From assembly GCF_000167355.1 (NCBI RefSeq), contig NZ_AAEW02000011.1, positions 62,001-126,000 of the forward strand: a stretch of DNA of 64,000 nucleotides, written 5' to 3'. Shown piece by piece: positions 7,310-40,345 of this stretch. The notes below the pieces were generated by a model that was not told the origin of the DNA, searched no databases, and saw nothing but the letters and a program-made list of their open reading frames with translations. Both the position numbers and the translations under genes were made by a program. How positions within the stretch are numbered: position 1 is the first letter of the stretch; the number at the start of each line of letters is the position of its first letter. The stretch comes from Desulfuromonas acetoxidans DSM 684 (lineage in GTDB: Bacteria > Desulfobacterota > Desulfuromonadia > Desulfuromonadales > Desulfuromonadaceae).

Positions 7310-8596
7310 CTAACTTAGCGTTCCAACAAGGAAATTCTGACTCACGCCGACAATCTCAACCGAGACAAGTTCTCCAGCAGCACCCTGCTCACCTGCGACC
7401 AGAACGGTCAAATATTCAGCACTGGTGCCTTGCCACTGGTTATTTTTTGTACGGGATTCCAACACAACGTCAACAAGCCGACCAATAAACTGCTCTCGGT
7501 ACTGGCTGGCTTTTTCCTCTGCCAATACTCGAAGCTCTGCGGCACGTTGCTTGGCGATATCCCCAGGGATCTGATCGGGCATGGTAGCCGCCGGCGTTCC
7601 CGGCCGGGCACTGAACGGAAAGACATGCAGATAATGCACCGGCAAAGACGAGATAAACTCACAGGTATGCCGATGTTGCGCTTCTGTCTCACCGGGAAAA
7701 CCACTGATCACATCAATACCGATCGAGACACGTGGAATTTTTTGACATAACAGTTCAACAGTGTCGTGAAACTGCCGGATGGAGTAATGGCGATTCATCT
7801 GTTGCAGAACATCATCACAACCGGACTGCAATGGGATATGAAAATGGGGGCAGATCCGAGAAGAGTGTTGTACACAGTCGATCAACGCCTCGTTGACCTC
7901 TTGAGGTTCAATAGAACCAAGACGGATGCGGCATCCATCAGTCTGCGTCAATAAAGCATTGAGCAAGTCAGTTAACGTACATTGCGGGGTCAAATCCTGA
8001 CCATAGTTGCCAATATGGATACCGGTCAAAACCACTTCACGATAACCGCCCGCAACCAGTTGATTGACCTGGTCTACCACTGCAGAGGTGTTCACGGAAC
8101 GACTTCGACCGCGAGCGTAAGGGATGATGCAGTAACTGCAAAAGGCATTACAACCACTCTGGATTTGCACAAAGGCACGACTGTGTTCGGAAAACGACGC
8201 TATTTTCAAGTCCGGGCACTGTTGTTGACTGGCAATATCGCCAACCTGAACCTGAGGCCCCTCCTGACACAGGATATCGATGAGATCCTGTTTTTCACTG
8301 TTGCCGATGACATACATCACTCCAGGCAACTCCGCGATCTGTTGCGGTTGAATTTGAGCATAGCAGCCGGTCACCACAATACGGCATTGCCCGTTCAAAC
8401 GACGGGCTCTACGAACCAATTTGCGTGACTGGGCATCGGTTGCCGAAGTGACGGTACAGGTATTAACAATGACCAACTCTGCCCCCTGTTCAAAAGGGAC
8501 AATCTGATACCCCTGTTCGCGCAGCATCCGCTCCATTGCTGCAGACTCAAACTGATTGGCCTTACATCCCAGAGTAACTATGCTGACGCAACTCAT
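7310..8596 (-). CDS. mtaB: tRNA t6A methylthiotransferase MtaB
   Basis: A 428-residue radical SAM methylthiotransferase that adds a methylthio group to t6A37 of tRNAs reading ANN codons. Domains in order: N-terminal UPF0004 cluster domain (TLGCKANQFES, NTCTVTSATDAQSRK, VTGCYAQ give three cysteines for the auxiliary cluster), radical SAM core with SGCNAFCSYCIIPYARGRSRS, and a C-terminal TRAM-like segment. The TSATDAQSRK pattern fits the MtaB rather than MiaB branch. I start it at the ATG at 8596, which overlaps the mnmA stop codon by ATGA; upstream in-frame codons would give a poor extra leader. It is the last gene of the cysE operon. Confidence 0.9.
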   Translation of the reverse strand: MSCVSIVTLGCKANQFESAAMERMLREQGYQIVPFEQGAELVIVNTCTVTSATDAQSRKLVRRARRLNGQCRIVVTGCYAQIQPQQIAELPGVMYVIGNSEKQDLIDILCQEGPQVQVGDIASQQQCPDLKIASFSEHSRAFVQIQSGCNAFCSYCIIPYARGRSRSVNTSAVVDQVNQLVAGGYREVVLTGIHIGNYGQDLTPQCTLTDLLNALLTQTDGCRIRLGSIEPQEVNEALIDCVQHSSRICPHFHIPLQSGCDDVLQQMNRHYSIRQFHDTVELLCQKIPRVSIGIDVISGFPGETEAQHRHTCEFISSLPVHYLHVFPFSARPGTPAATMPDQIPGDIAKQRAAELRVLAEEKASQYREQFIGRLVDVVLESRTKNNQWQGTSAEYLTVLVAGEQGAAGELVSVEIVGVSQNFLVGTLS

Positions 8597-9633
8597 ACCG
8601 TAATCCATCCACCGCCAAGGACACAATCGTCGTCATAAAAAACCGCGCATTGTCCGGGGGTCACACCATATTGAGGCTCATCGAAAACCACATCGACATC
8701 ACCGTTGGGCCGGATCGACAGGGTGGCCATGGCCGGATGATGACGGTAACGAATCCGACAATCAACACGCAACGAGGTGTGTTGTGGCGGTACCGACCAA
8801 GTCACATCACGTACTTGCAGACGATCACGCTGTAAAGCGGCTTTTTCACCAACGATAACCCGCTGCTGCTCAGCATCAAGCTCAATCACATAAAGTGGTT
8901 CCGTCCAACCAATGCCGAGACCTCGTCGTTGGCCGATGGTGTAGCGATGGGTCCCATGGTGCGTTCCCAGCACTTTACCGTTAATATGGACAATCTCTCC
9001 ATGGTCCGGCCATGGGCTGTCATAGCGTTCGAGAAATCCGATATAATCGTTGTCGGGAACAAAACAGATATCCTGACTTTCTGACTTCTTCCGAGAACTG
9101 AGGTGGTATTTTTCAGCCAGGTTGCGCACCTCGGGCTTGGTCAAACCGCCAAGAGGAAACAACACCCGTTTTAACTGGGCCGCACTGAGCACAAAAAGAA
9201 AATAACTCTGGTCTTTTTGTTTATAAAGCCCGCGACAGAGACGAACATGGTCCTTTTGGCGGTCGATGCGTGCATAGTGGCCAGTGGCCAGATAATCGGC
9301 CCCCAGCTCATCAGCCAACGCGAACAAAGCGCCAAACTTGAACTGTTGATTGCAACGGACACAGGGATTAGGCGTGCGACCGGCACGGTATTCGCGACAG
9401 AAGTCTCCGATAATGGCAGCATTAAAAGTGTCTCGGCAATCCAGACTGTGAAACGGAATCTCTAACTCTTCAGCAATGCGGCGCGCATCCGCCTCGCCCT
9501 GAATCGATTGATCTCCAGGCAGCAGACGCATATGGGCACCGATCACCTCATAACCCTGATCAATCAGCAGGGCTGCCGTCACCGATGAATCAACACCGCC
9601 ACTCATGGCCACCAATACTGTGTTTTTTTTCAT
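8593..9633 (-). CDS. mnmA: tRNA 2-thiouridylase MnmA
   Basis: A 346-residue tRNA-specific 2-thiouridylase that thiolates U34 of Glu, Gln and Lys tRNAs using sulfur ultimately from a cysteine desulfurase. The PP-loop SGGVDSSVTA binds ATP. The two catalytic cysteines are in NPCVRCN (nucleophile) and SQDICFV (persulfide carrier). Length and the C-terminal beta-barrel are typical. It sits downstream of a cysteine desulfurase gene in the same direction, with a 262-bp repeat-bearing gap, and is translationally coupled to mtaB, so two tRNA thiolation steps and their sulfur donor are encoded together. Confidence 0.95.
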   Translation of the reverse strand: MKKNTVLVAMSGGVDSSVTAALLIDQGYEVIGAHMRLLPGDQSIQGEADARRIAEELEIPFHSLDCRDTFNAAIIGDFCREYRAGRTPNPCVRCNQQFKFGALFALADELGADYLATGHYARIDRQKDHVRLCRGLYKQKDQSYFLFVLSAAQLKRVLFPLGGLTKPEVRNLAEKYHLSSRKKSESQDICFVPDNDYIGFLERYDSPWPDHGEIVHINGKVLGTHHGTHRYTIGQRRGLGIGWTEPLYVIELDAEQQRVIVGEKAALQRDRLQVRDVTWSVPPQHTSLRVDCRIRYRHHPAMATLSIRPNGDVDVVFDEPQYGVTPGQCAVFYDDDCVLGGGWITV

Positions 9634-9679
9634 TTTGGATCCTGCAACCTGACCCCTCTACGGATTCAGGAAAAGACAG

Positions 9680-9708
9680 CGAAGGCACTTCCAGATGAAG
9701 TGCCTTCG
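9680..9708. repeat. 11-bp perfect hairpin in the desulfurase-mnmA gap
   Basis: CGAAGGCACTT (9680-9690) and AAGTGCCTTCG (9698-9708) form a perfect stem with a 7-base loop. On the minus strand it is followed by CTGTCTTTTCC, a weak U-tract, so it could be an intercistronic attenuator or mRNA-stabilising hairpin rather than a full terminator. Confidence 0.5.
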
Positions 9709-9718
9709 TGGGGTTAAA

Positions 9719-9871
9719 CAGGATGTTGAAAAAATCCCGTCCGGGGATTTTTCAACGACGCAAGCCAAAAATGCGATTTCCGTCTTGCTCACAAAATCAA
9801 GGACTTGAAAACATGTCCTTGATTTTGATCGCCCGTCCATGAGCTCCACAGTCTGTTTTTTCAACAGCCTG
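9719..9871. mobile_element. MITE-like palindromic repeat with CAGGxTGTTGAAAAAA ends
   Basis: A 153-bp non-coding element. The ends are 16-bp inverted repeats: CAGGATGTTGAAAAAA (9719-9734) and TTTTTTCAACAGCCTG (9856-9871), 15 of 16 matching. Inside are a left hairpin (about 9725-9756) and a perfect 13-bp stem CAAAATCAAGGAC/GTCCTTGATTTTG (9792-9804, 9815-9827). A degenerate relative lies at 15939-16060 and a compact one may lie at 50167-50225. It carries no gene. It separates the cysteine desulfurase gene from mnmA. Confidence 0.65.
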
Positions 9872-9895
9872 TAAATCTATCGAACGGACACAACG

Positions 9896-11101
9896 CTAAT
9901 GGGGATCGATCTCACACTCGACCACCAAACAGTCCGAGGAAAATTCGCGCTCAAGCATCGGACTCATCTCGCGCAATTTATCAACAATGGGTGGTAATTG
10001 TTCCAGAACATAGTCCACATCATCTTGTGTTGTCTGCGGACCGAGGCTGAATCGAACACTGGAGTGCAACACCGCCTCCGCAACCCCCATGGCCGCCAGA
10101 ACATGAGACGGACCATCGGATCCGGAGGTACAGGCCGAACCCGACGACGCGGCAATGCCAACCATATCCATGTACAACAACAGCCCTTCCCCTTCGATAA
10201 AGGAAAAACTGACGTTGAGGGTGTTGGGCAAACGGTTGTCCTTATGTCCATTGAGAGTGACATCAGGCAGAGCCAATACCCCCTGTTGCAAACGGTTACG
10301 CAACACCATCATTCGTGCAACATCGTCATCAAACTGTTGTTGCGCTACGGCACAGGCTTTGCCAAAAGCAACAATCCCGGCGACATTCAGCGTACCGGCA
10401 CGACGCCCCTGCTCCTGATGACCGCCATGAATCAGCGATTCCAGTTCGATACCATCACGCACATAGAGGGCTCCCACTCCTTTAGGCGCACCAATTTTAT
10501 GCCCGGAAAACACCATCAGATCAACACCACACTCTGCCACGTCAATCGCCACTTTACCGAGCGCCTGAACGGCATCGCAATGGAATCGTATCTGATGCTT
10601 GCGAGCAATCCGGCCGATTTCACCAATGGGAAACAGACAGCCGGTCTCATTGTTGGCCCACATGACGGAGATCAGAATAGTCTGATCGGTGATGGCAGCT
10701 TCCAGTTCAGCCAAATCAAGCATCCCTTCACTGTCCACCCCAAGATACGTGACGCAAGCCCCTTTTGTTTCCAGGTAGCGACAGGTATCGAGCACTGCCG
10801 GATGTTCCACAGCCGTCGTAATAATGTGATTGCCATTGCTTTTGAGCATTTCATAACTACCGATCAGCGCCTGATTGTCTCCTTCACTGCCGCAACCGTT
10901 AAAAACAATCTCTTGCGGCGTGGCATTGATCAGGTCAGCAACCTGCTGACGGGCATTATCCACAGCGCCTTTAACCTCTCGACCGGCCCAGTGAATACTG
11001 GAGGGATTTCCATAAGCGTGCTGATAAAACGGTAGTAAAGCATCAACCACCACAGGAAGAACCGGGGTGGTTGCATTGTTATCCAGATAGACGTTTTTCA
11101 C
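9896..11101 (-). CDS. Cysteine desulfurase (NifS/IscS type)
   Basis: A 401-residue PLP enzyme that takes sulfur from cysteine as a persulfide for Fe-S cluster and tRNA thiolation. Seen: YLDNNATTPV at the N-terminus, the PLP lysine in FSGHKIGAPKG, and the persulfide cysteine in SSGSACTSG of the group I type. The GTG at 11101 is chosen over a TTG two codons upstream because AGAGG lies 7 bases before it; the TTG would have almost no spacing. It lies 12 bp after the Rrf2 regulator, the same order as isc operons. No scaffold (iscU) gene follows. Confidence 0.92.
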   Translation of the reverse strand: MKNVYLDNNATTPVLPVVVDALLPFYQHAYGNPSSIHWAGREVKGAVDNARQQVADLINATPQEIVFNGCGSEGDNQALIGSYEMLKSNGNHIITTAVEHPAVLDTCRYLETKGACVTYLGVDSEGMLDLAELEAAITDQTILISVMWANNETGCLFPIGEIGRIARKHQIRFHCDAVQALGKVAIDVAECGVDLMVFSGHKIGAPKGVGALYVRDGIELESLIHGGHQEQGRRAGTLNVAGIVAFGKACAVAQQQFDDDVARMMVLRNRLQQGVLALPDVTLNGHKDNRLPNTLNVSFSFIEGEGLLLYMDMVGIAASSGSACTSGSDGPSHVLAAMGVAEAVLHSSVRFSLGPQTTQDDVDYVLEQLPPIVDKLREMSPMLEREFSSDCLVVECEIDPH

Positions 11102-14071: not shown

Positions 14072-15913
14072 TTAGTAGCGTCCAAACTCCTCATCATCAA
14101 GGGCAATCTGAACATCATCTTTTTCAGGCGTGCGTTCAACCGGAAGCGTATGGGGTTTGCGCTCATAAGCCACCCGCTCAACCTGGGGCTTCGGTTCCTG
14201 CCATGCAACAGGTTCCGGCTCAGGCTGATGCATAACCACACGGTTCTGACCTTGCTTGAGTACGAATCGTCCCAACATCTGACGCAGCTGATCGGCCTGA
14301 CTGGACAGCTCTTCGGCGGCGGCCGCACCCTCTTCGGCACTGGCGGTGTTCTGCTGGGTTACTTGATCGATTTGACCTAAGCCGATGCTGACCTGTTGCA
14401 CACCTTGGGCCTGCTCGTTGCTGGCCGAGGCGATTTCAGCGACCAGATCGGTCACTTTAACGATGCTTTGTACGATGTCGTTAAAGCCGCTGGCCGTACG
14501 GTCGGCAATGGTCACACCGTTTTCGGCTTTTTTGACGGAACCTTCGATCAGTTCAGCGGTTTCACTGGCGGCTTTGGCGCTGCGAGCGGCCAGGTTGCGC
14601 ACCTCTTCGGCGACAACAGCGAAGCCTTTGCCGTGCTGTCCGGCGCGGGCAGCTTCTACGGCGGCGTTGAGAGCCAGCAAGTTGGTCTGGAACGCGATCT
14701 CGTCGATCACTTTGATGATCTTGGCGATATCCTGACCGGAGGCGCTGATGTCGTCCATGGCACCAATCATATCCTGCATGCTGTCTTTACCGCTGTCGGC
14801 TGCAGTGCGAGCCTGATCGGCAAGCTGACTGGCCTGGCCGGCGTTGTCGGCACTGAGTTGAATCTGGCTGCTGAGCTCCTGCATGGAGGCGGAGATCTCT
14901 TCGAGAGAGCTGGCGGATTCCGTGGCACCTTGCGATAAGGCCTGACTGGAATCGGATACTTCAGTGGATCCGGCTGCAATCTGCTCTCCTGCCACCTGGA
15001 CTTGGGACATAATTTCATTCATGTCGTTGCCAAGCGCTTTGAGGGCGCCACGAATCTCGTCTTTGTCGCTGTGGGGAACCACGTCAAAGTCGAGGTTGCC
15101 GTCGGCCAGCTTGCGCAGCGAGGCGACGATATCGTTTTGCAGACTGTCGGCAAATTTGTCCATGGTGGCGGCCATCTGCCCCACTTCGTCTTTTTGATTC
15201 AGATTCATTCGGGACGACAATTGACCAGCTTCGAGACTGGACAACATCTCTACGGCGTGTTTCAGTGGACGGGAGATGCCGCGAGAGACAAAATACACCA
15301 GAGCCAAGGCCAGAAGAATGACCACGCTAACCACGACGAGAACGGCGTAGAAGATGGCGTTGAGTTCGGCCTGAATGTCATCCAGATACAATCCGGCACC
15401 GACAATCCAGCCCCAGTCACGCTGCAATTTGACAAACGAGATTTTTCCAACAGGCTTGGTGGTACCGGGTTTACTCCATTGGTAATCAACAAAGCCTTGA
15501 CCGTTTTTACTGGCCACTTTGGCCATTTCGACGAAAAGCGCCTTACCGCTCGGGTCAGTTGAACCACTGAGGCTTTTACCATCTAAGTCCGGCTTGATCG
15601 GGTGCATGACCATGTTTGGTGTGGCATCCTGAATCCAGAAATAGTTGTTACCTTCATCAAAGCGCAAATGGCTTACAGCTTGTTTCGCAGCAGTTTGAGC
15701 CTCTTCCAGACTCATAGTCCCGCTTTTGTACTCTTGGGCGTAATGATCGACAACACCCCAGGCACTTTCAACCGTGTGCTCAATTTCAACATTCTTACCA
15801 TGGTAAAGGCTGTCTTTAAGACGACCGTACACCCAGCCGACTGTCAGCGTAAATCCGACAACCAAGGCCATGCTCAGCACAAAAATTTTCATGGATACGT
15901 TCAAGTTTTTCAT
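14072..15913 (-). CDS. Methyl-accepting chemotaxis protein with single Cache domain (copy 1)
   Basis: A 613-residue chemoreceptor. Order: TM1 about 8-30, periplasmic sCache_2 domain about 35-185 (FWIQDATPNMVMHPIKP, WGWIVGAGLYLDDIQAEL), TM2 about 190-212, HAMP, then the signalling hairpin with the invariant tip EIAFQTNLLALNAAVEAARAGQHGKGFAVVA-type sequence split around residues 410-440. An extended Pro/Glu/Arg-rich tail follows. From TM2 onward it is essentially identical to the second receptor at 17399-19234, while sensor domains differ. ATG at 15913 has GGGGGAAGC upstream. It follows the pseudo-receiver gene at 16076-16495. Related Cache domains bind small carboxylates; the ligand is unknown. 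Confidence 0.95.
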   Translation of the reverse strand: MKNLNVSMKIFVLSMALVVGFTLTVGWVYGRLKDSLYHGKNVEIEHTVESAWGVVDHYAQEYKSGTMSLEEAQTAAKQAVSHLRFDEGNNYFWIQDATPNMVMHPIKPDLDGKSLSGSTDPSGKALFVEMAKVASKNGQGFVDYQWSKPGTTKPVGKISFVKLQRDWGWIVGAGLYLDDIQAELNAIFYAVLVVVSVVILLALALVYFVSRGISRPLKHAVEMLSSLEAGQLSSRMNLNQKDEVGQMAATMDKFADSLQNDIVASLRKLADGNLDFDVVPHSDKDEIRGALKALGNDMNEIMSQVQVAGEQIAAGSTEVSDSSQALSQGATESASSLEEISASMQELSSQIQLSADNAGQASQLADQARTAADSGKDSMQDMIGAMDDISASGQDIAKIIKVIDEIAFQTNLLALNAAVEAARAGQHGKGFAVVAEEVRNLAARSAKAASETAELIEGSVKKAENGVTIADRTASGFNDIVQSIVKVTDLVAEIASASNEQAQGVQQVSIGLGQIDQVTQQNTASAEEGAAAAEELSSQADQLRQMLGRFVLKQGQNRVVMHQPEPEPVAWQEPKPQVERVAYERKPHTLPVERTPEKDDVQIALDDEEFGRY

Positions 15914-15938
15914 AGCTTCCCCCGATAGGTTTGGTTGG

Positions 15939-16060
15939 CAGGTTGTCGAAAAATCCATCCAGGACTTTCACCCACGCATAACGAAAATCAAATCTTCGTC
16001 ATCTTTACAGAATCAGTCTTTAAACAATCAGGAGCTGATTCTTATCGCCCCTCCCTGGGC
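15939..16060. repeat. Degenerate copy of the MITE-like repeat
   Basis: Starts CAGGTTGTCGAAAAATCC, like the left end of the element at 9719, then keeps the same order of features: a central inverted repeat GAATCAG/CTGATTC (16010-16016, 16035-16041) and the segment TTATCGCCCCTCC like TGATCGCCCGTCC. The right terminal repeat is lost. It fills the gap between the pseudo-receiver and chemoreceptor of module 1; the same gap in module 2 lacks it (55 bp instead of 162 bp). Confidence 0.5.
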
Positions 16061-16075
16061 TCATAAATTTCGTGA

Positions 16076-16495
16076 CTAAGGTGTTGCCTGCAGCAATCCA
16101 CGATTGAGTGCATCATGAATCTCTTCGATACGACCAACCAACTTTTCGCTTTGACAAAAATCAACACCCTCGCGAGTCAGTTCAGCCAAACATTTTTTTT
16201 CACTACGCTCCAGTTCATTGCTGCAAATCAGAATGGAAACAGGCCGCTGCAAATTGCTGCACATCTCCAGGCATTGCGATTCGAAAAGTCGCTCTTCCAT
16301 GCTTTCAGCAAGGGAGAGATAGTTAACAACAACCAGCAGATCAAAATAATTGTCGTTAACATCAGCATTCTTGAGATAATTAACGGCTTCCGGCAAAGAG
16401 ACCGAAGATTGCACCTCCCAACCGGCGAGCCTTAATAGAAAAGATACAATTTTCAATCTCTCCGGTCGGGCTGCTGTAATCATCACTTTGTTCAT
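16076..16495 (-). CDS. Pseudo-receiver-like protein (copy 1)
   Basis: A 139-residue protein with the alternating hydrophobic-strand pattern of a response-regulator receiver, but without its acidic pocket: the first strand ends TAAR instead of DD, and the third strand ends VVVNYLSLAE with Asn where the phospho-accepting Asp would be. It resembles the protein at 19290-19694 (shared ERLKI-SFL-R-G pattern at residues 10-25). Both lie directly upstream of near-identical chemoreceptors behind sigma-54 promoters. It may be a non-phosphorylated adaptor for the chemoreceptor; this is inference. The ATG at 16495 is preceded by AAGGAC. Confidence 0.7.
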   Translation of the reverse strand: MNKVMITAARPERLKIVSFLLRLAGWEVQSSVSLPEAVNYLKNADVNDNYFDLLVVVNYLSLAESMEERLFESQCLEMCSNLQRPVSILICSNELERSEKKCLAELTREGVDFCQSEKLVGRIEEIHDALNRGLLQATP

Positions 16496-16564
16496 AACGT
16501 TGTCCTTAGTATTAAAAAAAATTTTCATGTCATTATGCTTGTGATCTTGTTGAGATCTTTAAAG

Positions 16565-16580
16565 AGCAATCGTTGTGCCA
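16565..16580 (-). promoter_or_regulatory. Sigma-54 promoter of module 1 (pseudo-receiver and chemoreceptor)
   Basis: TGGCACAACGATTGCT on the minus strand matches the -24/-12 consensus TGGCACN5TTGCW at every defined position, with GG and GC ten bases apart. Transcription would start near 16554, leaving a leader of about 60 bases before the ATG at 16495. Needs an enhancer-binding activator; the NtrC-type regulator at 19942-21366 is the nearest one. Confidence 0.85.
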
Positions 16581-16798
16581 GAAAGCCAAAAAGCCCATAA
16601 CAAGCTGGATTGACAGAGGAAACGATCAAAAATCAACATGGTCGTAGAAACAAAAAGGTTATGCACAAAAGAATAGAAACATGCGCAATTAAAAATAAAT
16701 CGCGCAAAAACGATGAGTTACATCGATATGCAGTTCTGCAAGTTATAACAATTGTCATAGCCTTTTTTAACGGCGGGAGAAGACGTTTTTCTCAACAA

Positions 16799-16838
16799 AA
16801 AACGGGGGGCTATTCCACACTAGAACAGCCCCCGTTTT
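16799..16838 (-). terminator. Terminator of the chemoreceptor-cheW operon
   Basis: AAAACGGGGG(G)CT and AGCCCCCGTTTT form a 12-bp stem with one bulge; read on the minus strand it is followed by TTTTTTGTTG. It lies 40 bp after the cheW stop codon. Confidence 0.85.
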
Positions 16839-16878
16839 GGGGATAGATACACGCTTTCAGTATAATTAGGCCGTCTTT

Positions 16879-17370
16879 TTATGCCGCTTCGACAAAGTCT
16901 CCTTCATTGATCAAGCGATCAACGTCAATAAGGATTTTCACTTCATCATTCAACTTGCCCAACCCCATAATATAATCCTCGTTCAGTTGTAATTGGGGAA
17001 CCGGCTGAATCTGGTTACTGCTGATCTCGACCACTTCATTCACACGATCGACAATCAGTCCAACGGTATCTTCACCAACATTGACAACCACAACACAGGT
17101 ACGATCATCATACTCACGCTGTTCCATATCAAATCGCAGGCGGACATCCATCACCGAAATCACCTTACCGCGCAAATTGATCACACCCTGCATGTAGTGT
17201 GGCATGTCCGGAACAGCGGTAATTCTCTGGATGCCGATGATCTCAATCACATGGGCGATATCGATGCCAAAATCCTCACTACCGATATGAAAGTTCAAGT
17301 ACAGGTCCTTCTGTGCCATGTCCATTGTTTCAAACGTTTCGTCAACCATTGTGTTCTCTACATCGCTCAT
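16879..17370 (-). CDS. cheW: Chemotaxis coupling protein CheW
   Basis: A 163-residue CheW scaffold that links chemoreceptors to the CheA kinase. Seen: LYLNFHIGSEDFGIDIAHV at the start of the fold, the receptor-contact strands PHYMQGVINLRGKVISVMDV, and NVGEDTVGLIVDRVNEVVEI. Two ATG codons are adjacent; the second (17370) has AGGAGG at 6 bases and gives MSDVENT. The frame is open far upstream into the chemoreceptor gene but that reading is an overlap artefact. No CheA, CheY, CheR or CheB is nearby, so this CheW must feed a chemosensory array encoded elsewhere. Confidence 0.93.
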   Translation of the reverse strand: MSDVENTMVDETFETMDMAQKDLYLNFHIGSEDFGIDIAHVIEIIGIQRITAVPDMPHYMQGVINLRGKVISVMDVRLRFDMEQREYDDRTCVVVVNVGEDTVGLIVDRVNEVVEISSNQIQPVPQLQLNEDYIMGLGKLNDEVKILIDVDRLINEGDFVEAA

Positions 17371-17398
17371 CATGTCCCTCCTGACTTCTAAAAAATCC

Positions 17399-19234
17399 TT
17401 AGCGGGTTGCATTCTCGCCCCAACCACTACCCTGTCCCGGAACCAATTGGGAACGCTCAACCGGAAGCGCGTGAGGTTTGCGCTCATAAGCCACCCGTTC
17501 AACTTGGGGCTTAGGTTCCTGCCATGCAACAGGTTCCGGCTCAGGCTGATGCATAACCACACGGTTCTGACCTTGCTTGAGTACGAACCGTCCCAACATC
17601 TGACGCAGCTGATCGGCCTGACTGGACAGCTCTTCGGCGGCGGCCGCACCCTCTTCGGCACTGGCGGTGTTCTGCTGGGTTACTTGATCGATTTGACCTA
17701 AGCCGATGCTGACCTGTTGCACACCTTGGGCCTGCTCGTTGCTGGCCGAGGCGATTTCAGCGACCAGATCGGTCACCTTAACGATGCTTTGTACGATGTC
17801 GTTAAAGCCGCTGGCCGTACGGTCGGCAATGGTCACACCGTTTTCGGCTTTTTTGACGGAACCTTCGATCAGTTCAGCGGTTTCACTGGCGGCTTTGGCG
17901 CTGCGAGCGGCCAGGTTGCGCACCTCTTCGGCGACAACAGCGAAGCCTTTGCCGTGCTGTCCGGCGCGGGCAGCTTCTACGGCGGCGTTGAGAGCCAGCA
18001 AGTTGGTCTGGAACGCGATCTCGTCGATCACTTTGATGATCTTGGCGATATCCTGACCGGAGGCGCTGATGTCGTCCATGGCACCAATCATATCCTGCAT
18101 GCTGTCTTTACCGCTGTCGGCTGCAGTGCGGGCCTGATCGGCAAGCTGACTGGCCTGGCCGGCGTTGTCGGCACTGAGTTGAATCTGGCTGCTGAGCTCC
18201 TGCATGGAGGCGGAGATCTCTTCGAGAGAGCTGGCGGATTCCGTGGCACCTTGTGATAAGGCCTGACTGGAATCGGATACTTCAGTGGATCCGGCTGCAA
18301 TCTGCTCTCCTGCCACCTGGACTTGGGACATAATTTCATTCATGTCGTTGCCAAGCGCTTTGAGGGCGCCACGAATCTCGTCTTTGTCGCTGTGGGGAAC
18401 CACGTCAAAGTCGAGGTTGCCGTCGGCCAGCTTGCGCAGCGAGGCGACGATATCGTTTTGCAGACTGTCGGCAAATTTGTCCATGGTGGCGGCCATCTGC
18501 CCCACTTCGTCTTTTTGATTCAGATTCATTCGGGACGACAATTGACCAGCTTCGAGACTGGACAACATCTCTACGGCGTGTTTCAGTGGACGGGAGATGC
18601 CGCGAGAGACGAAATACACCAGAGTTATGGCCAGAAGAATGACCACACTGACAACAGCAATAACCGCGTAAAAGATCGCATTGAGTTCAGCCTGAATATC
18701 GTCAAGGTAAAGTCCGGCACCGACAATCCAACCCCAATCAGGTTGCAACTTGACAAACGAGGCTTTGCCAACAGGCTTGGTGGCACCGGGCTTGCTCCAT
18801 TGGTACTCAACAAAACCTTCACCAGATTTGCCGGCGACCTGAGCCATTTCAACAAATAGTGCTTTGCCATTGGGATCGGTAATGCTGCTGAGATTCTTGC
18901 CATCCAATTCCGGCTTGATCGGATGCATGACCATGGTCGGTGTAGCATCTTGAATCCAGAAATAATTGTTGCCATGATCAAAACGAGTGTGGCTGATAGC
19001 TTCTTTGGCAGAGGCCTGCGCTTGCTCCAGGGTTATCTCGCCGTTTTTGTAGGAGTGCGCATAAAAATCGACAATGCTCCAGGCGCTTTCGACCGAATGT
19101 TTAATTTCGATATTTTTCGCATGGTACAGATGATCTTTGAAGCTGCTGTACACCCAACCGATCGTCACAGTAAAACCGACGATCAAGGCCATGCTCAGCA
19201 CAAAAATTTTCATGGATACGTTCAAGTTCTTCAT
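17399..19234 (-). CDS. Methyl-accepting chemotaxis protein with single Cache domain (copy 2)
   Basis: A 611-residue receptor with the same plan as copy 1: TM1, sCache_2 sensor (FWIQDATPTMVMHPIKPELDG, WGWIVGAGLYLDDIQ), TM2, HAMP, signalling hairpin. From the HAMP domain to the tail (about 380 residues) only one amino-acid change from copy 1 was seen (PHALP for PHTLP); the periplasmic part differs at many sites. The last 15 residues are different (ends SGWGENATR). It lies 28 bp before cheW and 55 bp after the second pseudo-receiver gene. Ligand unknown. Confidence 0.95.
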   Translation of the reverse strand: MKNLNVSMKIFVLSMALIVGFTVTIGWVYSSFKDHLYHAKNIEIKHSVESAWSIVDFYAHSYKNGEITLEQAQASAKEAISHTRFDHGNNYFWIQDATPTMVMHPIKPELDGKNLSSITDPNGKALFVEMAQVAGKSGEGFVEYQWSKPGATKPVGKASFVKLQPDWGWIVGAGLYLDDIQAELNAIFYAVIAVVSVVILLAITLVYFVSRGISRPLKHAVEMLSSLEAGQLSSRMNLNQKDEVGQMAATMDKFADSLQNDIVASLRKLADGNLDFDVVPHSDKDEIRGALKALGNDMNEIMSQVQVAGEQIAAGSTEVSDSSQALSQGATESASSLEEISASMQELSSQIQLSADNAGQASQLADQARTAADSGKDSMQDMIGAMDDISASGQDIAKIIKVIDEIAFQTNLLALNAAVEAARAGQHGKGFAVVAEEVRNLAARSAKAASETAELIEGSVKKAENGVTIADRTASGFNDIVQSIVKVTDLVAEIASASNEQAQGVQQVSIGLGQIDQVTQQNTASAEEGAAAAEELSSQADQLRQMLGRFVLKQGQNRVVMHQPEPEPVAWQEPKPQVERVAYERKPHALPVERSQLVPGQGSGWGENATR

Positions 19235-19289
19235 AGCTTCCCCCGCTAGGTTTGGTTAAAACAGTGTCTGTTTACGAGCATGCCCATTG

Positions 19290-19694
19290 TTAGGACTGTT
19301 GGTCACATTGTTGTGCTGCGCAGTGGCGCTCAACAAAGTCGATGATCTGATGTGACTGACACATCAGGAATGATTCACCTTGTGGAACTTCTTGGACCAG
19401 GGCTAGCTGTTCCGGCTCTGTCCATCGGTATGCGGCAAGGAGTACTGCTGACGGTTCAAGCTGGGCCAAGGTTGTCAGTTTTTCAAAACGCAGTTCACGC
19501 TGGTGGCCAAGGTGGTGATAATCGGCAACAACAAGTAATGATGATTGCCGTTCAACACTGCTGAGCCCTTGATAAGATGCCATCGCACGCCCAAGATCTT
19601 GAATAACCTCAATGGTGTAACCGGATACTCTGAATAAAAACGAAAGTATTTTCAGCCGTTCTTGATTGCCTTCGGTCAAAATCACGTTTTTCAT
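19290..19694 (-). CDS. Pseudo-receiver-like protein (copy 2)
   Basis: A 134-residue protein related to the one at 16076-16495. The receiver-like fold is suggested by strand 1 (MKNVILTEGNQERLKILSFL), strand 3 (SSLLVVADYHHLG) and strand 4 (SAVLLAAYRW). The double acidic residues of strand 1 are absent (TEGN), though an Asp is kept in VADY. Start ATG 19694 has GGGAGGTGCTT upstream. It heads the operon pseudo-receiver, chemoreceptor, cheW. Without the acidic triad it is unlikely to be a normal phosphorylated CheY; an adaptor role is inferred. Confidence 0.7.
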   Translation of the reverse strand: MKNVILTEGNQERLKILSFLFRVSGYTIEVIQDLGRAMASYQGLSSVERQSSLLVVADYHHLGHQRELRFEKLTTLAQLEPSAVLLAAYRWTEPEQLALVQEVPQGESFLMCQSHQIIDFVERHCAAQQCDQQS

Positions 19695-19735
19695 AAGCAC
19701 CTCCCTGCACAACACGTTATTTACCCTTGTGATAG

Positions 19736-19751
19736 AGCAACGCCCATGCCA
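19736..19751 (-). promoter_or_regulatory. Sigma-54 promoter of module 2 (pseudo-receiver, chemoreceptor, cheW)
   Basis: TGGCATGGGCGTTGCT on the minus strand keeps the GG and GC pairs ten bases apart and all the strongly conserved positions (TGGCA, TTGCT). Start site near 19725, about 31 bases before the ATG at 19694. An inverted repeat CGCATAG/CTATGCG at 19809-19838, about 60 bp upstream, is a possible enhancer site. Confidence 0.85.
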
Positions 19752-19808
19752 CAACGGCCAAACAAAACATAAGTCACTGTAATCGTGGCAGGTTTTATCC
19801 AACGCAAC

Positions 19809-19838
19809 CGCATAGAAGAGTTATTAACAGGCTATGCG
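19809..19838. promoter_or_regulatory. Inverted repeat upstream of the module 2 promoter
   Basis: CGCATAG (19809-19815) and CTATGCG (19832-19838) are perfect 7-bp arms 16 bases apart. Their place, 60-90 bp upstream of a sigma-54 promoter and 100 bp from the regulator gene, suits an activator-binding site. Not confirmed by a second copy at module 1. Confidence 0.35.
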
Positions 19839-19867
19839 TTTCATCATGACGTGTTGGCCATAAAATA

Positions 19868-19897
19868 AAAAAAGCCCTGATTTCTCAGGACTTTTTT
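19868..19897. terminator. Terminator after the two-component operon
   Basis: AAAAAGCCCTGA/TCAGGACTTTTT with a TTTC loop and one mismatch, T-runs on both strands. It lies 45 bp after the regulator stop codon, separating it from module 2. Confidence 0.8.
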
Positions 19898-19941
19898 CAA
19901 TATAACCTGTGTCATGGCTATAACGTTTGTTATATGGGTTT

Positions 19942-21366
19942 TCAGGCGCAAGACTCAGAGGACTTTTTCAATCGTCGACTTAATGCAGGTTGGGAAATCC
20001 CTAAAAGCTTTGAGGCGATTGATTGATTGCCCTGAGAACGCTTCATGGCTTCATCAACCAGTTGCCCGGCAACTTCATCCAGAGTGGGCAACTGCTCGGG
20101 AAACATCACCCTGCCGGTAATCGGGCAGGAGGTTGGTGCGTTTTTGTCAGACTCATCAATAGCAATGGCCTGGCGAAAGACGTCCATCGACAGGATTCCC
20201 TGACGATGCTGACTTAAGGCATCGTAAACCATTCCACGCAATTCTCGGATATTGCCGGGGAAGTGATACGTTGATAACAGGACCGGCAATTGAGGTGGAT
20301 AGGTCGGCACCTCTTTATTCAATTGATCGGCAGCCTGTTCGAGAAAATGAGTGAGCAACAAGGGTAGATCTTCACTACGCTCACGCAACGGTGGCAGAAC
20401 AACCTGGTGCGAGCAAAGACGGTAATACAGATCTTTTCGAAAAGCACCGGACTGCTGCTTGCCGGCAAGATCGCAATTGGTTGCACAGATGATTCGCGCT
20501 TCCACCTGACGGGGCGCATCACTGCCCAACGCAAAATATTCCTTCTCCTGTAACAGACGCAATAACTTCACCTGGGATTGCAACGACAGATCGCCAATCT
20601 CATCAAGAAACAGAACTCCTCCTGCAGCCTTGGCGATCATTCCCTCTCTGGGTTTGTCGGCGCCGGTAAACGCGCCACGAACATGGCCAAACAAGGTATC
20701 GCTGAACGCAGTGTCATCGAGTCCAGCAACATTAACCGCCACCCATGGCGCATCAGGACAACTCAAGCGGTGAACCGCTTTGGCAATCAACTCTTTACCC
20801 GACCCGGACTCGCCGACGATCAGAATGGGCTCACAACTGCAGGCGACAGCTTCAAGGTACTTGAACACCGAGATCATCATCGGACTGCGCGTCACAATCT
20901 CTTCAAACACGTCGGGATGATTCAAGCCATAGCTGAGCAAGCCACTTTTGAGCGTTTGCAACTCACGGCGTAGATCCTGTTCGGTAAGAATGCGCTTCAA
21001 CCCCGTCATCAGATGGCTGATTTCAGTGGTTTTCGTATAATAATCCGTAGCCCCGAGCTTCATGCAGTTGACAGCCGTATCAAGCTGATTGAGTCCACTC
21101 AGAACGACCACTGGCACATCTGGATACTCTGCAGTGATCAACGGCAACAACTGTTCCCCGGTCGGTGGCGGCATGGTCATATCGAGAATCACCAGACTGA
21201 ATGGTTGCTCCTTGAGCAGCGCCATCACTTCATGGCTTTGACTGCAGGTCATGACATGGGTGATCCCAGCCTGATATTCCAGAGTAAAGCTGAAACTCTC
21301 CAACCACTCCACCTCATCATCAACCAGCAGCACCGGAAATTTTGGATAAAGACCCGAATGTGTCAT
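19942..21366 (-). CDS. Sigma-54-dependent response regulator (NtrC family)
   Basis: A 474-residue activator. Receiver domain about 10-130 with the acidic pair in LLVDDEVEW and the phospho-Asp in VILDMTMPPP; AAA+ domain about 150-390 with Walker A GESGSGKE, the sigma-54-contacting GAFTGA loop, and Walker B GGVLFLDEIGD; C-terminal Fis-type helix-turn-helix (NQSIASKLLGISQPALSRRLKK). Its start overlaps the kinase stop codon by ATGA. The intact GAFTGA means it can activate sigma-54 promoters; two near-consensus ones lie immediately downstream of it, in front of the chemoreceptor modules, which makes them likely targets (inference). Confidence 0.93.
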   Translation of the reverse strand: MTHSGLYPKFPVLLVDDEVEWLESFSFTLEYQAGITHVMTCSQSHEVMALLKEQPFSLVILDMTMPPPTGEQLLPLITAEYPDVPVVVLSGLNQLDTAVNCMKLGATDYYTKTTEISHLMTGLKRILTEQDLRRELQTLKSGLLSYGLNHPDVFEEIVTRSPMMISVFKYLEAVACSCEPILIVGESGSGKELIAKAVHRLSCPDAPWVAVNVAGLDDTAFSDTLFGHVRGAFTGADKPREGMIAKAAGGVLFLDEIGDLSLQSQVKLLRLLQEKEYFALGSDAPRQVEARIICATNCDLAGKQQSGAFRKDLYYRLCSHQVVLPPLRERSEDLPLLLTHFLEQAADQLNKEVPTYPPQLPVLLSTYHFPGNIRELRGMVYDALSQHRQGILSMDVFRQAIAIDESDKNAPTSCPITGRVMFPEQLPTLDEVAGQLVDEAMKRSQGNQSIASKLLGISQPALSRRLKKSSESCA

Positions 21367-24338
21367 GCGTCCTCCTTATAACACGGCAACGAGATGGTGA
21401 TCTCTGTCCCTGAGTCGACAACACTTTCAATCGACAGGCGACCACCATGTTCTTCAATGATGCGTGATGATATCGATAACCCTAATCCCGTTCCACCCGT
21501 CTCCCTTTTTGTTGTAAAAAACGGGTTGGTAACTTTGGCGATATTCTCCTCACTGATGCCGCAACCTTGATCAATGATCTCCAACTCAATCTGGTTATTT
21601 TTGGCATCGTAGCGCGTCTGCAGCATGATAGACGCGTCCATGTCCGGCAACGACTGACAGGCATTCATGATCAGATTAACAATGACCTGTTCAATACGTT
21701 GCACAGAACCGATGAACGGGGGCAAGTTCTCTGCATAAGTGACCGAAAAATAATTGGTCGCTTTCTTCACTGTGTTGCTTGTCAAACGCACGGCAGCCTC
21801 AAGTGCATAATTCAAATCAGCCCGACTCCCTGCGTCCAAAACCCCTTCATCGCGCACAAAGTCTTTCAAATCATCAACAATGGCCTTGATCCGCTGGCTA
21901 CTGTCCTCAACCCGACGCGGTATTTGAAGCAACTTATCGCGTACTCGGCTGTAAGGCAGACGGCCGACAGTAAAATCACCATGATCTTGAACATAGTCAT
22001 CGAGAATCGGCTGCAGTGACTCGAGCATCTCACGAATAATTGGCGCATTTTGCATGATCACCCCGTTGGGATTATTGATCTCATGGGCAATGCCGGCAGA
22101 CAACTCCCCCAGCGAGGCCAATCGCGCCGAACGCATGGCTTCTTCACGTAAAATACTCGATTCGGTAATATCACTGGCCACTTCAATCACATTGGTGACC
22201 TGACCGTTTTCATCTTTTTGCGGAAATGTTTTGATCCCCCAGCGAACACCATCGGGCGTTGTCACGATTGAACTGTGACTTTCACCAGTTTCAAAACTCT
22301 TACGGATCGGACAATCCTTACATTCACTCAGGTTCTTATCCCAGAGCGAATAACAACTGGTCATGGGAAGGACCGCTTCATTTTTATTCCAGCGTTTTTT
22401 GCCGTGATTACACCAGAGAATTTTCATATCTGGACTGATCAGAGAGATCACATCCTCGATACTGTTCAGAATTGACTGAAATTCTGCAGAAAGCAGCTTA
22501 TATTGCTCTTCGCGCTCCTGAAGTTGTCGCTGGGTTTTCTTAAATGCAGATATATCTTCAAGCAAAATCAGGATGTTTTCGCAGGAGCTTTCCGGGCCAG
22601 CCAGACAGGCCGCAGAAACCAGCAAATCAAGCTTGTGTCCGTCTTTATGGTAACGCTGCATCTCCCTGGCCTGAAGAATCAGACCATTTTCGACCAGCTT
22701 TTTGTAGTCGAGACACTCTGCTGTCATATCTTCCCCCCTGACCAAGGGGTAGAGTTGACCGAGAACTTCCCTTTCTTTCCAGCCAAACATCTTTTCGGCG
22801 CTGGGATTCCACATCACCACATACCCCTCTTGGGTCACGACAATAATCGACATGGGGGCTTCACGGATAATGGTTTCCAGAGTGGCAACGGTATTTTGCA
22901 GCTTCTGCTCAATCTGGCGGCGGGCATTGACTTCAAGATCCAGTTCATCCCGCGATGCCGTGACCTGCTGAAGATTGTGCACCATGGTGTCAAAGGAACG
23001 ATACAGCGCTTCAATTTCAAAACCACTGGCATGCCCTAATTCGTAGTCCAGATCGCCCTGGCCGACACGCTGAAATCCTTCTACCGCTTTTTCAAGCGGC
23101 TTGGAGATCTGGGTGGCCAGACGGAAAGCCAGCCACAGGGCCAAACTGAACCACAAAAAAGCTGTCATGCAGACAGAGGCGACCGTACGTTGAAACATGA
23201 CACCTAAACGCTGCTGGGTGGAACTGGCTGTTTCACACTGGGAATAGATGCCAACAAGCCAGTCCCAAGGCGCAAAATAGCTGTAAACAATGACATGGTC
23301 ATCCGGCACTGCGGACACACCGTTTAAACCACCATCTGTGTGAAGAACATTTATTTTATCCGTCAATAGCAGGCGATTTTCATTGAGCAGTTTGCCGATG
23401 ATCTGCTGGGCATATTGGGCATCCTTGCTGGTAAGCCCGGAATGTACATGGTCGTAATCAGATGACGTCAGTTGCTGAACAACCCCCTGACGGTGATTCT
23501 CCTCACGCGGCTGGGCCTCCATCATAAACAACGCACCACTGGATCCGGCCGCAATATGTTGAATGGAATGAATCAGGGATGCGAGCTCGGATTGACGTTC
23601 GCCGACATAGAGCATGCCGATAATATTTCGCTGTTGATCATATAACGGATGATAAGCAGTGTTGTACCAGTCATCGACGACAAAAGCACGACCGACAAAG
23701 CGCTGCCCCTGCAGTACTTGACTGATAACCGGATCAAATGAACCGTCCGGATGCTGTGCCGGAATATAGGTGCCGACGGCGGCCCGCCCATCAGAGCTGG
23801 GAACCGTCGTGGCGACGCGCAACATGTCACCCTGCGGATCTATGCGCTGAAACAAAGTGCAGGTAACGCCGAGCACTTCGGACAGGTGTTCGATAAAATG
23901 GCTTGTTGATGGAGATTGCCAATGATCAGGATCGTACAAGTTGTTGTTCGAAACAAATTCCAGTGTCGGAAGAACAACGTCACGACTTGAATGATCGTAT
24001 TGGTTAATGATTGTCCACTGCTGGGTGCGTGGCGTGATTTGAACCCCTCCAGAACTGTTCAAAAGAGCTTGGGCGGCGTTCAAATTGTAGTGCAGACGTC
24101 GTTCAACTTCAGCCTGCAGCGCCTCAATCATGAGAATTGTATTGCGCAGGACATTTTTCGTTTGGTCGAACTCAATGGTAAACAGTTCTTCTTCGATCTC
24201 GTCCTGAACATAATCGAGTTGGTAAAACACCACAGAAACAATGGACAGAGCCGTCAACAACACCAGAACGAGCGCCATAATGGCTATTTTCGACCGAATT
24301 TTCATCATTCCACCGTGTTTAATAATTGATTGTTTCAT
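21363..24338 (-). CDS. Cache-HAMP-PAS sensor histidine kinase
   Basis: A membrane kinase of about 991 residues. Order: TM1 (IAIMALVLVLLTALSIVSVVF), a large periplasmic Cache_3/Cache_2-type sensor (VGRAFVVDDWYNTAYHPLYDQQRNIIGMLYVG), TM2 about 395-420, HAMP, two PAS domains (first MSIIVVTQEGYVVMWN; second with Cys-rich ECKDCPIRKSFETGE), then HisKA with phospho-His in GIAHEINNP and an ATPase domain (NACQSLPD, GTGLGLSIS). The start is uncertain between ATG codons at 24338, 24308 and 24305; none has a strong site. Partner of the overlapping sigma-54 regulator. The ligand is unknown. Confidence 0.9.
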   Translation of the reverse strand: MKQSIIKHGGMMKIRSKIAIMALVLVLLTALSIVSVVFYQLDYVQDEIEEELFTIEFDQTKNVLRNTILMIEALQAEVERRLHYNLNAAQALLNSSGGVQITPRTQQWTIINQYDHSSRDVVLPTLEFVSNNNLYDPDHWQSPSTSHFIEHLSEVLGVTCTLFQRIDPQGDMLRVATTVPSSDGRAAVGTYIPAQHPDGSFDPVISQVLQGQRFVGRAFVVDDWYNTAYHPLYDQQRNIIGMLYVGERQSELASLIHSIQHIAAGSSGALFMMEAQPREENHRQGVVQQLTSSDYDHVHSGLTSKDAQYAQQIIGKLLNENRLLLTDKINVLHTDGGLNGVSAVPDDHVIVYSYFAPWDWLVGIYSQCETASSTQQRLGVMFQRTVASVCMTAFLWFSLALWLAFRLATQISKPLEKAVEGFQRVGQGDLDYELGHASGFEIEALYRSFDTMVHNLQQVTASRDELDLEVNARRQIEQKLQNTVATLETIIREAPMSIIVVTQEGYVVMWNPSAEKMFGWKEREVLGQLYPLVRGEDMTAECLDYKKLVENGLILQAREMQRYHKDGHKLDLLVSAACLAGPESSCENILILLEDISAFKKTQRQLQEREEQYKLLSAEFQSILNSIEDVISLISPDMKILWCNHGKKRWNKNEAVLPMTSCYSLWDKNLSECKDCPIRKSFETGESHSSIVTTPDGVRWGIKTFPQKDENGQVTNVIEVASDITESSILREEAMRSARLASLGELSAGIAHEINNPNGVIMQNAPIIREMLESLQPILDDYVQDHGDFTVGRLPYSRVRDKLLQIPRRVEDSSQRIKAIVDDLKDFVRDEGVLDAGSRADLNYALEAAVRLTSNTVKKATNYFSVTYAENLPPFIGSVQRIEQVIVNLIMNACQSLPDMDASIMLQTRYDAKNNQIELEIIDQGCGISEENIAKVTNPFFTTKRETGGTGLGLSISSRIIEEHGGRLSIESVVDSGTEITISLPCYKEDA

Positions 24339-24427: not shown

Positions 24428-24503
24428 AGGCGCGCTGTAGAGTCGCGGTGGAGAACCCTCTGCCCTTGTAACCTATAGGATGTCATGTCAAAAGGAGAGA
24501 ACC

Positions 24504-26117
24504 ATGTCAGAATTCAAGTACCAGGACCCGTTCCCGATGGGCAAGGACGATACCGAATATCGCCTGTTGACCAAGGAATATGTCAGCACCACCGAATTTG
24601 ACGGCCAGGAAGTTTTAAAAGTCGACCCCGAAGGTCTGGCGTTCCTGTCCAACCAGGCGTTCCGCGAAGTTAACTTCCTGCTGCGTCCGGCCCACAACGA
24701 AAAAGTCGCGTCCATTCTTCGTGACCCTGAAGCTTCTGCCAATGACCGCGGTGTTGCTATGGCCATGCTGCAGAATGCCGTTGTCGCAGCTAAATTTGAG
24801 CTACCGTTCTGTCAGGATACAGGCACTGCCACAATCGTTGGTAAAAAAGGTCAGGGCGTCTGGACCGGTTGTAATGACGCTGAAAAACTCTCTGAAGGAG
24901 TCTACAAGACCTACACCGAAGAGAACCTGCGCTACTCACAAAATGCACCGATCAATATGTACGACGAGGTCAACACCAAATGTAACCTCCCGGCTCAAAT
25001 TGATCTGTTGGCCACCAATGGTAGCGAGTATAAATTTCTGTTTGTCGTTAAAGGTGGTGGTAGCGCGAACAAAACCTACCTCTACCAGGAGACTAAAGCG
25101 ACCATTAACAAGAACACTCTGGTCGATTGGCTGGTTGGCAAACTCAAAACCCTCGGCACAGCAGCCTGCCCTCCCTACCATGTGGCATTCTGCATCGGCG
25201 GCACCAGCGCTGAAACCTGCTTAAAAACTGCCAAGCTCGGGTCCACAGGCTACTACGACAGCTTGCCGACTGAAGGCAATGAGCTGGGTCAATCGTTCCG
25301 CGATGTTGAGCTGGAGAATGAGCTGCTCAAGCGCGCTCAAGAGCTGGGCATCGGTGCTCAATTCGGCGGTAAATACTTCGCTCACGATATCCGCGTGATC
25401 CGTTCCAGCCGCCACGGCGCGTCCTGTCCCATCGGCCTGGCCGTCTCCTGTTCGGCAGACCGCAACATCAAGGCCAAGATCAACAAAGACGGCATCTGGC
25501 TGGAGCAGATGGACAACAACCCTGCGCGCCTCATGCCTGAAGGCGAGCGCGGCAACCGTCCTGAAGTGGTTAAAATCGACCTCAACCGTCCGATGAAAGA
25601 CGTTCTGGCGGAACTGTCCAAGTACCCGACCAAAACGCAATTGTCTCTCAACGGTACCATCATCGTTGGTCGTGATATTGCTCACGCCCGTTTCCGCGAG
25701 ATCATCGAGCGTGGTGAAGAGCTGCCGCAATATCTCAAGGATTACCCGATCTACTACGCCGGTCCGGCCAAAACTCCGCCCGGCAAGCCATCCGGATCCT
25801 TCGGTCCGACCACCGCAGCACGCATGGACCCCTATGTGGACATGCTGCAGTCGCGCGGCGCATCCATGATCATGATCGCCAAAGGCAACCGCTCCCAACA
25901 GGTGACGGATTCCTGTAACAAGCATGGCGGTTTCTACCTCGGCTCCATCGGTGGCCCGGCTGCCGCCCTGGCCGAGTACAACATCAAGAGCGTTGAATGC
26001 CTCGATTTTGAAGACCTGGGCATGGAAGCGGTCTGGAAAATTGAAGTTGAAGACTTCCCGGCCTTCATCCTGGTGGATGACAAAGGTAACGACTTCTTCA
26101 AAGAGCTGGGGATCTAA
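24504..26117 (+). CDS. Fumarate hydratase, class I (single chain)
   Basis: A 537-residue [4Fe-4S] fumarase interconverting fumarate and malate in the oxidative TCA cycle. Both halves of class I enzymes are fused in one chain: the alpha-type part ([17 protein letters not shown], and cysteine in CIGGTSAE) and the beta-type part (TVGRD-like [33 protein letters not shown]). The ATG at 24504 follows AAGGAGAG by 6 bases; an in-frame ATG at 24480 would add eight residues. Codon use is strongly biased, suggesting high expression. It is monocistronic, ended by a strong terminator. Confidence 0.95.
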
Positions 26118-35446: not shown

Positions 35447-35462
35447 AGCAAATCTCTTGCCA
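35447..35462 (-). promoter_or_regulatory. Sigma-54 promoter of glnB-glnA
   Basis: TGGCAAGAGATTTGCT on the minus strand fits the -24/-12 consensus at all strongly conserved positions. The start would be near 35436, leaving a leader of about 75 bases before glnB. Confidence 0.85.
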
Positions 35463-40041: not shown

Positions 40042-40345
40042 AAAGATCACAAAACGACCGGATAAAAGCCTTCTAGAGGGCACGATGAGCCACACAGCCG
40101 GGCACTGTGCAAAGTGAGTTTTCTCCCCCACCAGAAGTCATCAATCACTGCAAAACGGGCCATAGCCCCCAGATAAAACCTTGTGCAACATCGCCTCTGT
40201 CGATGAGCAATATTAGTGCCTACAGCAATAACTCCAGCAAGGGCATGAGAATATTCACACGAGTTTAAGGTTTTCTATGGCAGGAAAAGTTATTAGGATA
40301 TAAAAGGAAAATAGAAAAGAAGCAGGTTCCTTACCGGCGTTGCTC

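Follow-up and report, generated by a model that had tools for sequence, protein, structure and literature searches.

In Desulfuromonas acetoxidans DSM 684, two chemoreceptor genes, each preceded by a small receiver-like gene and a sigma-54 promoter, lie beside the genes of a histidine kinase and a sigma-54-dependent regulator. The question raised by this locus is whether the neighbouring sensory pair controls both receptor operons or whether they are driven by the flagellar regulator encoded elsewhere. Our analysis considered a window of 64,000 nucleotides (the whole stretch of DNA that was analyzed, contig C11:62001-126000), together with the rest of the 3.82 Mb genome (51 contigs) and the genomes of relatives. 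The genus is Desulfuromonas in the GTDB sense throughout.

Organization of the locus and its regulatory pair

The kinase, the regulator, rec2-MCP2-cheW and rec1-MCP1 are all encoded on the minus strand (Table 1). Read from right to left, the order is kinase, regulator, terminator, sigma-54 promoter, rec2, MCP2, cheW, terminator, sigma-54 promoter, rec1 and MCP1. We refer to rec2-MCP2-cheW as module 2 and to rec1-MCP1, which has no cheW, as module 1. As intrinsic terminators are found 3' of the regulator and of cheW, the operons should be considered as separate transcription units. The original prediction described two operons of the same gene order, each with a -24/-12 promoter, and an adjoining GAFTGA regulator with an overlapping Cache kinase; all of these elements are indeed present, and in the places that it gave. 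For two genes, the start was placed differently from the open reading frame call: rec1 was called from 16528, while an in-frame ATG at 16495 agrees with rec2, and MCP1 was called from 15958, while the conserved start, MKNLNV, lies at 15913.

Table 1 Features of the locus, with positions counted from the first letter of the window.
Feature	Position	Strand	Description
MCP1	14072..15913 (about)	-	sCache_2 chemoreceptor
rec1	16076..16495 (about)	-	receiver-fold protein (predicted)
Sigma-54 promoter, module 1	16565..16580	-	TGGCACAACGATTGCT; TGGCAC-N5-TTGCT
Enhancer B	16744..16759		TATAAC-AATT-GTCATA (+ strand); one mismatch; -24 element 179 bp off
Intrinsic terminator, module 2	16805..16833	-	module 2 end, after cheW
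CheW (cheW)	16879..17370	-	third gene of module 2
MCP2	17399..19234	-	sCache_2 chemoreceptor; 7/7 PscD ligand-contact residues
rec2	19290..19694	-	receiver-fold protein (predicted), degenerate active site, Cys112
Sigma-54 promoter, module 2	19736..19751	-	TGGCATGGGCGTTGCT; TGGCAT-N5-TTGCT
Intrinsic terminator, kinase-regulator operon	19866..19899	-	between enhancer and promoter
Enhancer A2	19901..19916		degenerate second copy, 18 bp from A1
Enhancer A1	19919..19934		TATAAC-GTTT-GTTATA (+ strand); perfect palindrome; -24 element 183 bp off
Regulator, NtrC/DctD-type sigma-54 activator	19942..21366	-	PF00072, PF00158, PF02954 (Pfam); helix GISQPALSRRL
Cognate histidine kinase	21363..24338	-	Cache_3-Cache_2, HAMP, PAS, HisKA, HATPase
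Divergent fumarase	24480..26117	+	kinase-gene neighbour conserved in genus

The regulator combines a receiver domain (PF00072) carrying the phospho-acceptor Asp in the sequence LVILD, an AAA+ Sigma54_activat domain (PF00158, E 1e-52) with the GAFTGA loop, and a C-terminal Fis-type HTH (HTH_8, PF02954). These domains place it in the NtrC family, as does a -24/-12 promoter with a palindromic enhancer 100-200 bp further upstream. Control of a C4-dicarboxylate transporter, which would mark it as DctD proper, was not found, the three sites in the genome preceding the MCP modules and a kinase operon. Orthologues of 69-93% identity are present in six genomes of the genus. The kinase gene overlaps the regulator gene by 4 bp, and its Cache_3-Cache_2 region has only distant relatives among solved structures.

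The arrangement resembles that of DctB/DctD and other NtrC-family pairs, where kinase and GAFTGA regulator genes that overlap or lie side by side are accompanied by an enhancer and a -24/-12 promoter on the neighbouring operon. As in DctB/DctD-type systems, homologues of the window's regulator precede TAXI TRAP transporter genes. Unlike in DctB/DctD, the targets at this locus are chemoreceptors with a receiver-like partner, joined by a distant signalling operon, and include no transporter.

Promoters and a shared palindromic enhancer

Allowing up to one mismatch, the -24/-12 consensus has six matches in the window, compared with 3.4 expected, and one perfect match sits inside a gene. As the matches are barely above chance, promoter consensus as the sole evidence was dropped. 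The two module promoters stand above chance because of their position at the start of an operon and because of an enhancer at a fixed distance. Three further near-consensus sequences (10/11) are found in the window, at 7213-7228 (+), 35447-35462 (-) and 40206-40221 (-), and these have no TATAAC-N4-GTTATA enhancer.

The two module promoters do have an enhancer in common, namely the palindrome TATAAC-N4-GTTATA, located 179-183 bp upstream of both -24 elements, which was first spotted by eye and then found by pattern search. We know of no published UAS of this form. A tandem of 18 bp, like that of A1 and A2, recurs at several regulator homologues. Between enhancer and promoter, no match to an IHF site with up to one mismatch was found in either module. 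Autoregulation of the kinase operon through this enhancer was considered and dropped, as no site with fewer than four mismatches was found upstream of the kinase gene, and the region between fumarase and kinase yielded neither the enhancer nor a sigma-54 site.

When the whole 3.82-Mb genome was searched with the pattern TATAACNNNNGTYATA (TATAACN4GTYATA), three perfect sites were obtained: A1, B and a site at C17:27330, which has a perfect -24/-12 element (TGGCACGTGCATTGCT) 180 bp downstream. The C17 operon encodes a hemerythrin-domain hybrid kinase, a receiver-HD-GYP protein and a 1969-aa PAS-rich hybrid kinase (L016 2865-12345), and is the predicted third member of the regulon, overlooked by the original prediction. 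The sigma-54 promoter of the hemerythrin kinase was found in five of five genomes, with the enhancer perfect in two and carrying two mismatches in G002. Through this target, a link of receptor supply to c-di-GMP or redox sensing is possible. Two other genes of the same locus were noted, one (L016 12451-13329) for a 292-aa protein with GYDxxGYD-type short repeats, a signal-peptide-like start and no Pfam match, and one (L016 15401-17680) for a 759-aa bacterial protein with a RyR domain and a TPR-S sensor domain.

In the genus, all 18 perfect sites, counted over eight genomes, are paired with a -24/-12 element (score of 10/11 or better) located 166-183 bp away, and for 16 of the 18 this distance is 178-183 bp. 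The spaced pattern GCAAN5RTNCCA-N(148-178)-TRACN4GTYA returned 18 distinct places in the genus, compared with two for the reversed control, and was absent from four family members of other genera (G010-G013). Counts of the bare enhancer are no higher than the reversed-control counts, and the argument thus rests on the pairing of enhancer and sigma-54 promoter. Class-level matches of the spaced pattern are mostly other motifs and were set aside.

The position of A1 after the regulator stop is kept in G008, G002, G007, G001 and G009. Indeed, in every orthologue with sequence beyond the stop codon, the enhancer is at most about 20 bp from it. The synteny itself is shared with other genomes, the kinase-regulator-receptor order being conserved both in relatives within the genus and in family f19. 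The complete set (kinase-regulator-rec-MCP-cheW, the second rec-MCP module and the divergent fumarase) recurs in G008, G002 and G007. In G001 and G009 it is seen as far as the contigs extend, with G009 having no pseudo-receiver, while in family f19 (G031, G045) kinase-regulator-rec-MCP is kept and the regulator is 62% identical. Some genomes present additional sites. In G002, these precede two more MCPs, both of the 4HB type and one of them with an HBM-like stretch, as well as an SBP/hybrid-kinase/HD-GYP operon, and in G007 a site precedes the hemerythrin kinase.

The recognition helix and the choice of regulator

To assign the palindrome to a regulator, we compared 74 regulator homologues, each with the DNA after its stop codon. 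The palindrome T[AG]AC-N4-GT[TC]A was present for 26 of 38 regulators with an ISQPAL helix and for 2 of 34 others (Fisher p 3e-8, a value that is indicative only, as the homologues are related). Most of the QPAL regulators without the palindrome are also without a downstream sigma-54 promoter. Among regulators driving pseudo-receiver/receptor modules, the palindrome was found in nine of nine QPAL cases and in 2 of 20 non-QPAL cases; in these two exceptions, the helix is RPAL and the palindrome is of the CGTAAC type. For QPAL regulators driving TAXI TRAP transporters, the count was 14 of 17, the three upstream of TAXI genes without the palindrome being L032, L108 and L115. The regulators that combine QPAL with the motif are spread over separate clades of the regulator tree, interspersed with regulators that have other helices. 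By these comparisons, the palindrome appears to track the recognition helix (QPAL) and not the type of target.

Since the palindrome goes with the regulator, the best candidate for driving both modules is the adjacent regulator and not the flagellar one. The main claim of the original prediction, that the neighbouring sensory pair controls both modules, is thus upheld at the level of sequence by the spaced enhancer, by the genus-wide synteny and spacing, and by the covariation of helix and enhancer.

QPAL regulators are also found at other types of target. Three in the genus (L129, L130 and L131, from G005, G006 and G003) drive TAXI TRAP genes via a TATAAC-N4-GTTATA-type palindrome. In the gammaproteobacterium Halomonas heilongjiangensis (L157 7399-10317), a QPAL homologue of 59% identity has the palindrome before an AGCS-type symporter and a glutaminase (gene names assigned by eye), probably as a result of lateral transfer with a swapped target.

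The genes, promoters and enhancer were read from the sequence, as were the spacing and its conservation, the covariation of enhancer and helix, and the ligand-pocket residues; from these we infer binding, phosphotransfer, activation, the ligand and a role for the pseudo-receivers. The Cache kinase would sense a periplasmic signal and phosphorylate the overlapping GAFTGA regulator, which would bind TATAAC-N4-GTTATA through its Fis-type helix (QPAL) and, by looping, activate sigma-54 polymerase about 180 bp downstream. The regulator would in this way turn on rec2-MCP2-cheW, rec1-MCP1 and the hemerythrin-kinase/HD-GYP operon on another contig. MCP1 and MCP2 would then join existing arrays, with the CheW supplied by module 2. 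We estimate the probability that a dedicated two-component system drives such a small sigma-54 chemoreceptor regulon at about 0.88.

Even with control as proposed, the receptors might feed another chemosensory pathway, such as one acting on type IV pili or c-di-GMP, instead of flagellar chemotaxis. Such an output would fit the hybrid kinases and HD-GYP proteins encoded by the third target and by one extra target in G002, as well as the control of whole che clusters by related regulators. The signalling domains of MCP1 and MCP2 are, however, those of standard MCPs, and we consider this output possible but doubtful.

It is improbable that the palindromes are bound by a QPAL paralogue of the TAXI-transporter regulator type or by another EBP, alone or together with the neighbour, such that the modules would follow a transport signal. 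The same palindrome does serve TAXI genes in G005, G006 and G009, and QPAL paralogues are present in G005, G006 and other genomes; in G006, where a TAXI-type paralogue and the chemoreceptor regulator are found together, cross-regulation is possible. In the window's genome, however, the two closest paralogues (55% and 54%) have the helices ISQQAL and ITQPSL, with no such palindrome downstream, although it should be noted that this comparison covers only three of many EBPs, namely those above the similarity cut-off.

The original prediction named the flagellar sigma-54 regulator as the alternative. In this reading, a flagellar regulator of the FlrC/FleQ type would activate the sigma-54-dependent modules as part of flagellar gene expression, and the neighbouring pair would control something else; it is disfavoured and in our view highly improbable. 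One DNA-binding activator can serve several operons, and sigma-54 promoters precede some flagellar and chemotaxis genes of the class (PMC2577667). Nonetheless, none of the genome's three enhancer-promoter pairs is flagellar, and the enhancer abuts the neighbouring regulator's stop wherever this is visible in the genus and covaries with its helix. Finally, the near-chance level of the -24/-12 consensus alone in the window would allow the promoters and palindromes to be coincidental and the modules to be constitutive. This reading is strongly contradicted by the fixed spacing at 18 of 18 genus sites, the conservation at 69-93% regulator identity and the helix covariation, and its probability is negligible.

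Control of the two modules by the neighbouring pair can be compared with what has been described in other bacteria. In Geobacter, sigma-54 sites were reported before che, mcp and flagellar genes (nine of 110; PMC2577667), and in Desulfovibrio vulgaris, promoters with no predicted UAS include chemotaxis-linked ones (PMC4641369). The portions of these two reports considered here likewise present sigma-54 chemotaxis promoters but name no activator or enhancer, whereas in the present case an activator is connected with an enhancer and with targets. In Borrelia, mcp5 is controlled through Rrp2-RpoN-RpoS (PMC11723614), another case in which a two-component system and RpoN gate the expression of a chemoreceptor. 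The Borrelia pathway is, however, global and acts via RpoS, while the Desulfuromonas pair is local, with sigma-54 promoters on the receptor operons.

The receptors and their receiver-like partners

MCP1 and MCP2, two of the 32 MCPs encoded in the genome, both contain PF00015, PF00672 and PF17200 (MCPsignal, HAMP and the periplasmic sensor). Their sCache_2 domains are closest to those of PscD (5g4y) and Adeh_3718 (4k08), with E 1e-40 for the Cache of MCP2. In PscD, propionate is contacted by Y90, W92, H103, F126, Y143, W145 and K156 (PMC5062169), and the alignment shows all seven to be kept in both MCP1 and MCP2. Of nine pocket residues described for acetate-bound Adeh_3718 (PMC3831638), both receptors keep eight, while the ninth, Phe133, is replaced by Met, as in PscD. 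Judging by these residues, MCP1 and MCP2 probably sense C2/C3 carboxylates such as acetate. From the known C2/C3-carboxylate sCache receptors PscD, McpP and Adeh_3718, MCP1 and MCP2 differ in their regulon membership, in having a partner pseudo-receiver and in their near-identical, duplicated signalling domains.

The DNA of MCP1 and MCP2 is 68-85% identical over the first 600 bp and 99-100% identical over the next 1100 bp, which encode HAMP and the signalling part (window 14150-15290 and 17470-18620). This step in identity points to recent gene conversion, or to a partial duplication, in which the sensor ends remained distinct.

It had been proposed that the cell swaps its taxis sensors according to a periplasmic signal. 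This part of the original prediction is not supported, as the C2/C3-carboxylate pocket predicted for MCP1 is also that of MCP2, and the signalling domains of the two are nearly identical. Induction would therefore add receptors of one kind and not exchange kinds, and there is no sign of another receptor going down.

The receiver-like proteins rec1 and rec2 are 26-30% identical to each other, and no Pfam or NCBIfam family scores on either. A profile of their family finds CheY structures (E 1.5e-5), and the AlphaFold model of rec2 (pLDDT 92.6) has receivers as its top Foldseek matches. By these models, rec1 and rec2 have the (beta/alpha)5 receiver fold, as do single-domain CheY-like receivers. 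Unlike CheY-like receivers, they have no Lys after beta-5, either near the end of this strand in rec2 or at the corresponding place in rec1, and their acidic pair is incomplete; the Asp-like position is D in rec2 and N in rec1. The set of acidic pair, phospho-Asp and Lys that marks a phosphorylatable receiver is thus not complete. In an alignment of 19 pseudo-receivers, a single Gly is invariant and a Cys close to the end of beta-5 is nearly so, and among pseudo-receivers held out of this alignment, the Cys is kept in four of the five with an aligned C-terminus. Cys112 was also considered as an exact stand-in for the catalytic Lys, an idea that was dropped because the CheY profile alignment puts the Lys two residues away.

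The pseudo-receiver family has 45 matches in 27 of 58 relatives. Outside the set used to build the profile, 11 of about 25 members lie, by coordinates, no more than about 700 bp downstream of a regulator homologue. Given this placement, a cassette made up of regulator, sigma-54 promoter, pseudo-receiver and a chemoreceptor or che cluster recurs across the order Desulfuromonadales. A paralogous cassette is found on C14 (L070, C14:85000-104000, about 8032-10359), where a regulator of 54-55% identity with the helix ISQQAL is followed by a pseudo-receiver and then by genes for a short cytoplasmic-tip MCP, CheW and an MCP, leading into a larger chemotaxis cluster. This cassette is also sigma-54-type and presumably has a different enhancer.

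Our search of the open-access literature found no equivalent description of the cassette, of the pseudo-receiver family or of pseudo-receivers beside chemoreceptors, and these proteins form a so far undescribed family of the receiver fold in which a Cys is near-invariant. As to what they do, we favour a role in the array or as an adaptor. A more specific proposal, rather unlikely as it stands, is that the Cys pseudo-receiver is a new array component, delivered with the receptor by sigma-54 two-component cassettes across Desulfuromonadales, that would set receptor-CheA coupling (e.g., as a thiol/redox-sensitive adaptor) and carry no phosphate.

Taken as proposed, control by the neighbouring pair ties activator, enhancer, promoters and targets into one testable regulon, and the helix-to-enhancer rule (QPAL to TAAC-N4-GTTA) gives predicted targets across many related genomes. 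For the organism itself, the regulon suggests a way in which a genus of acetate-oxidising sediment bacteria could match its taxis equipment to the environment.
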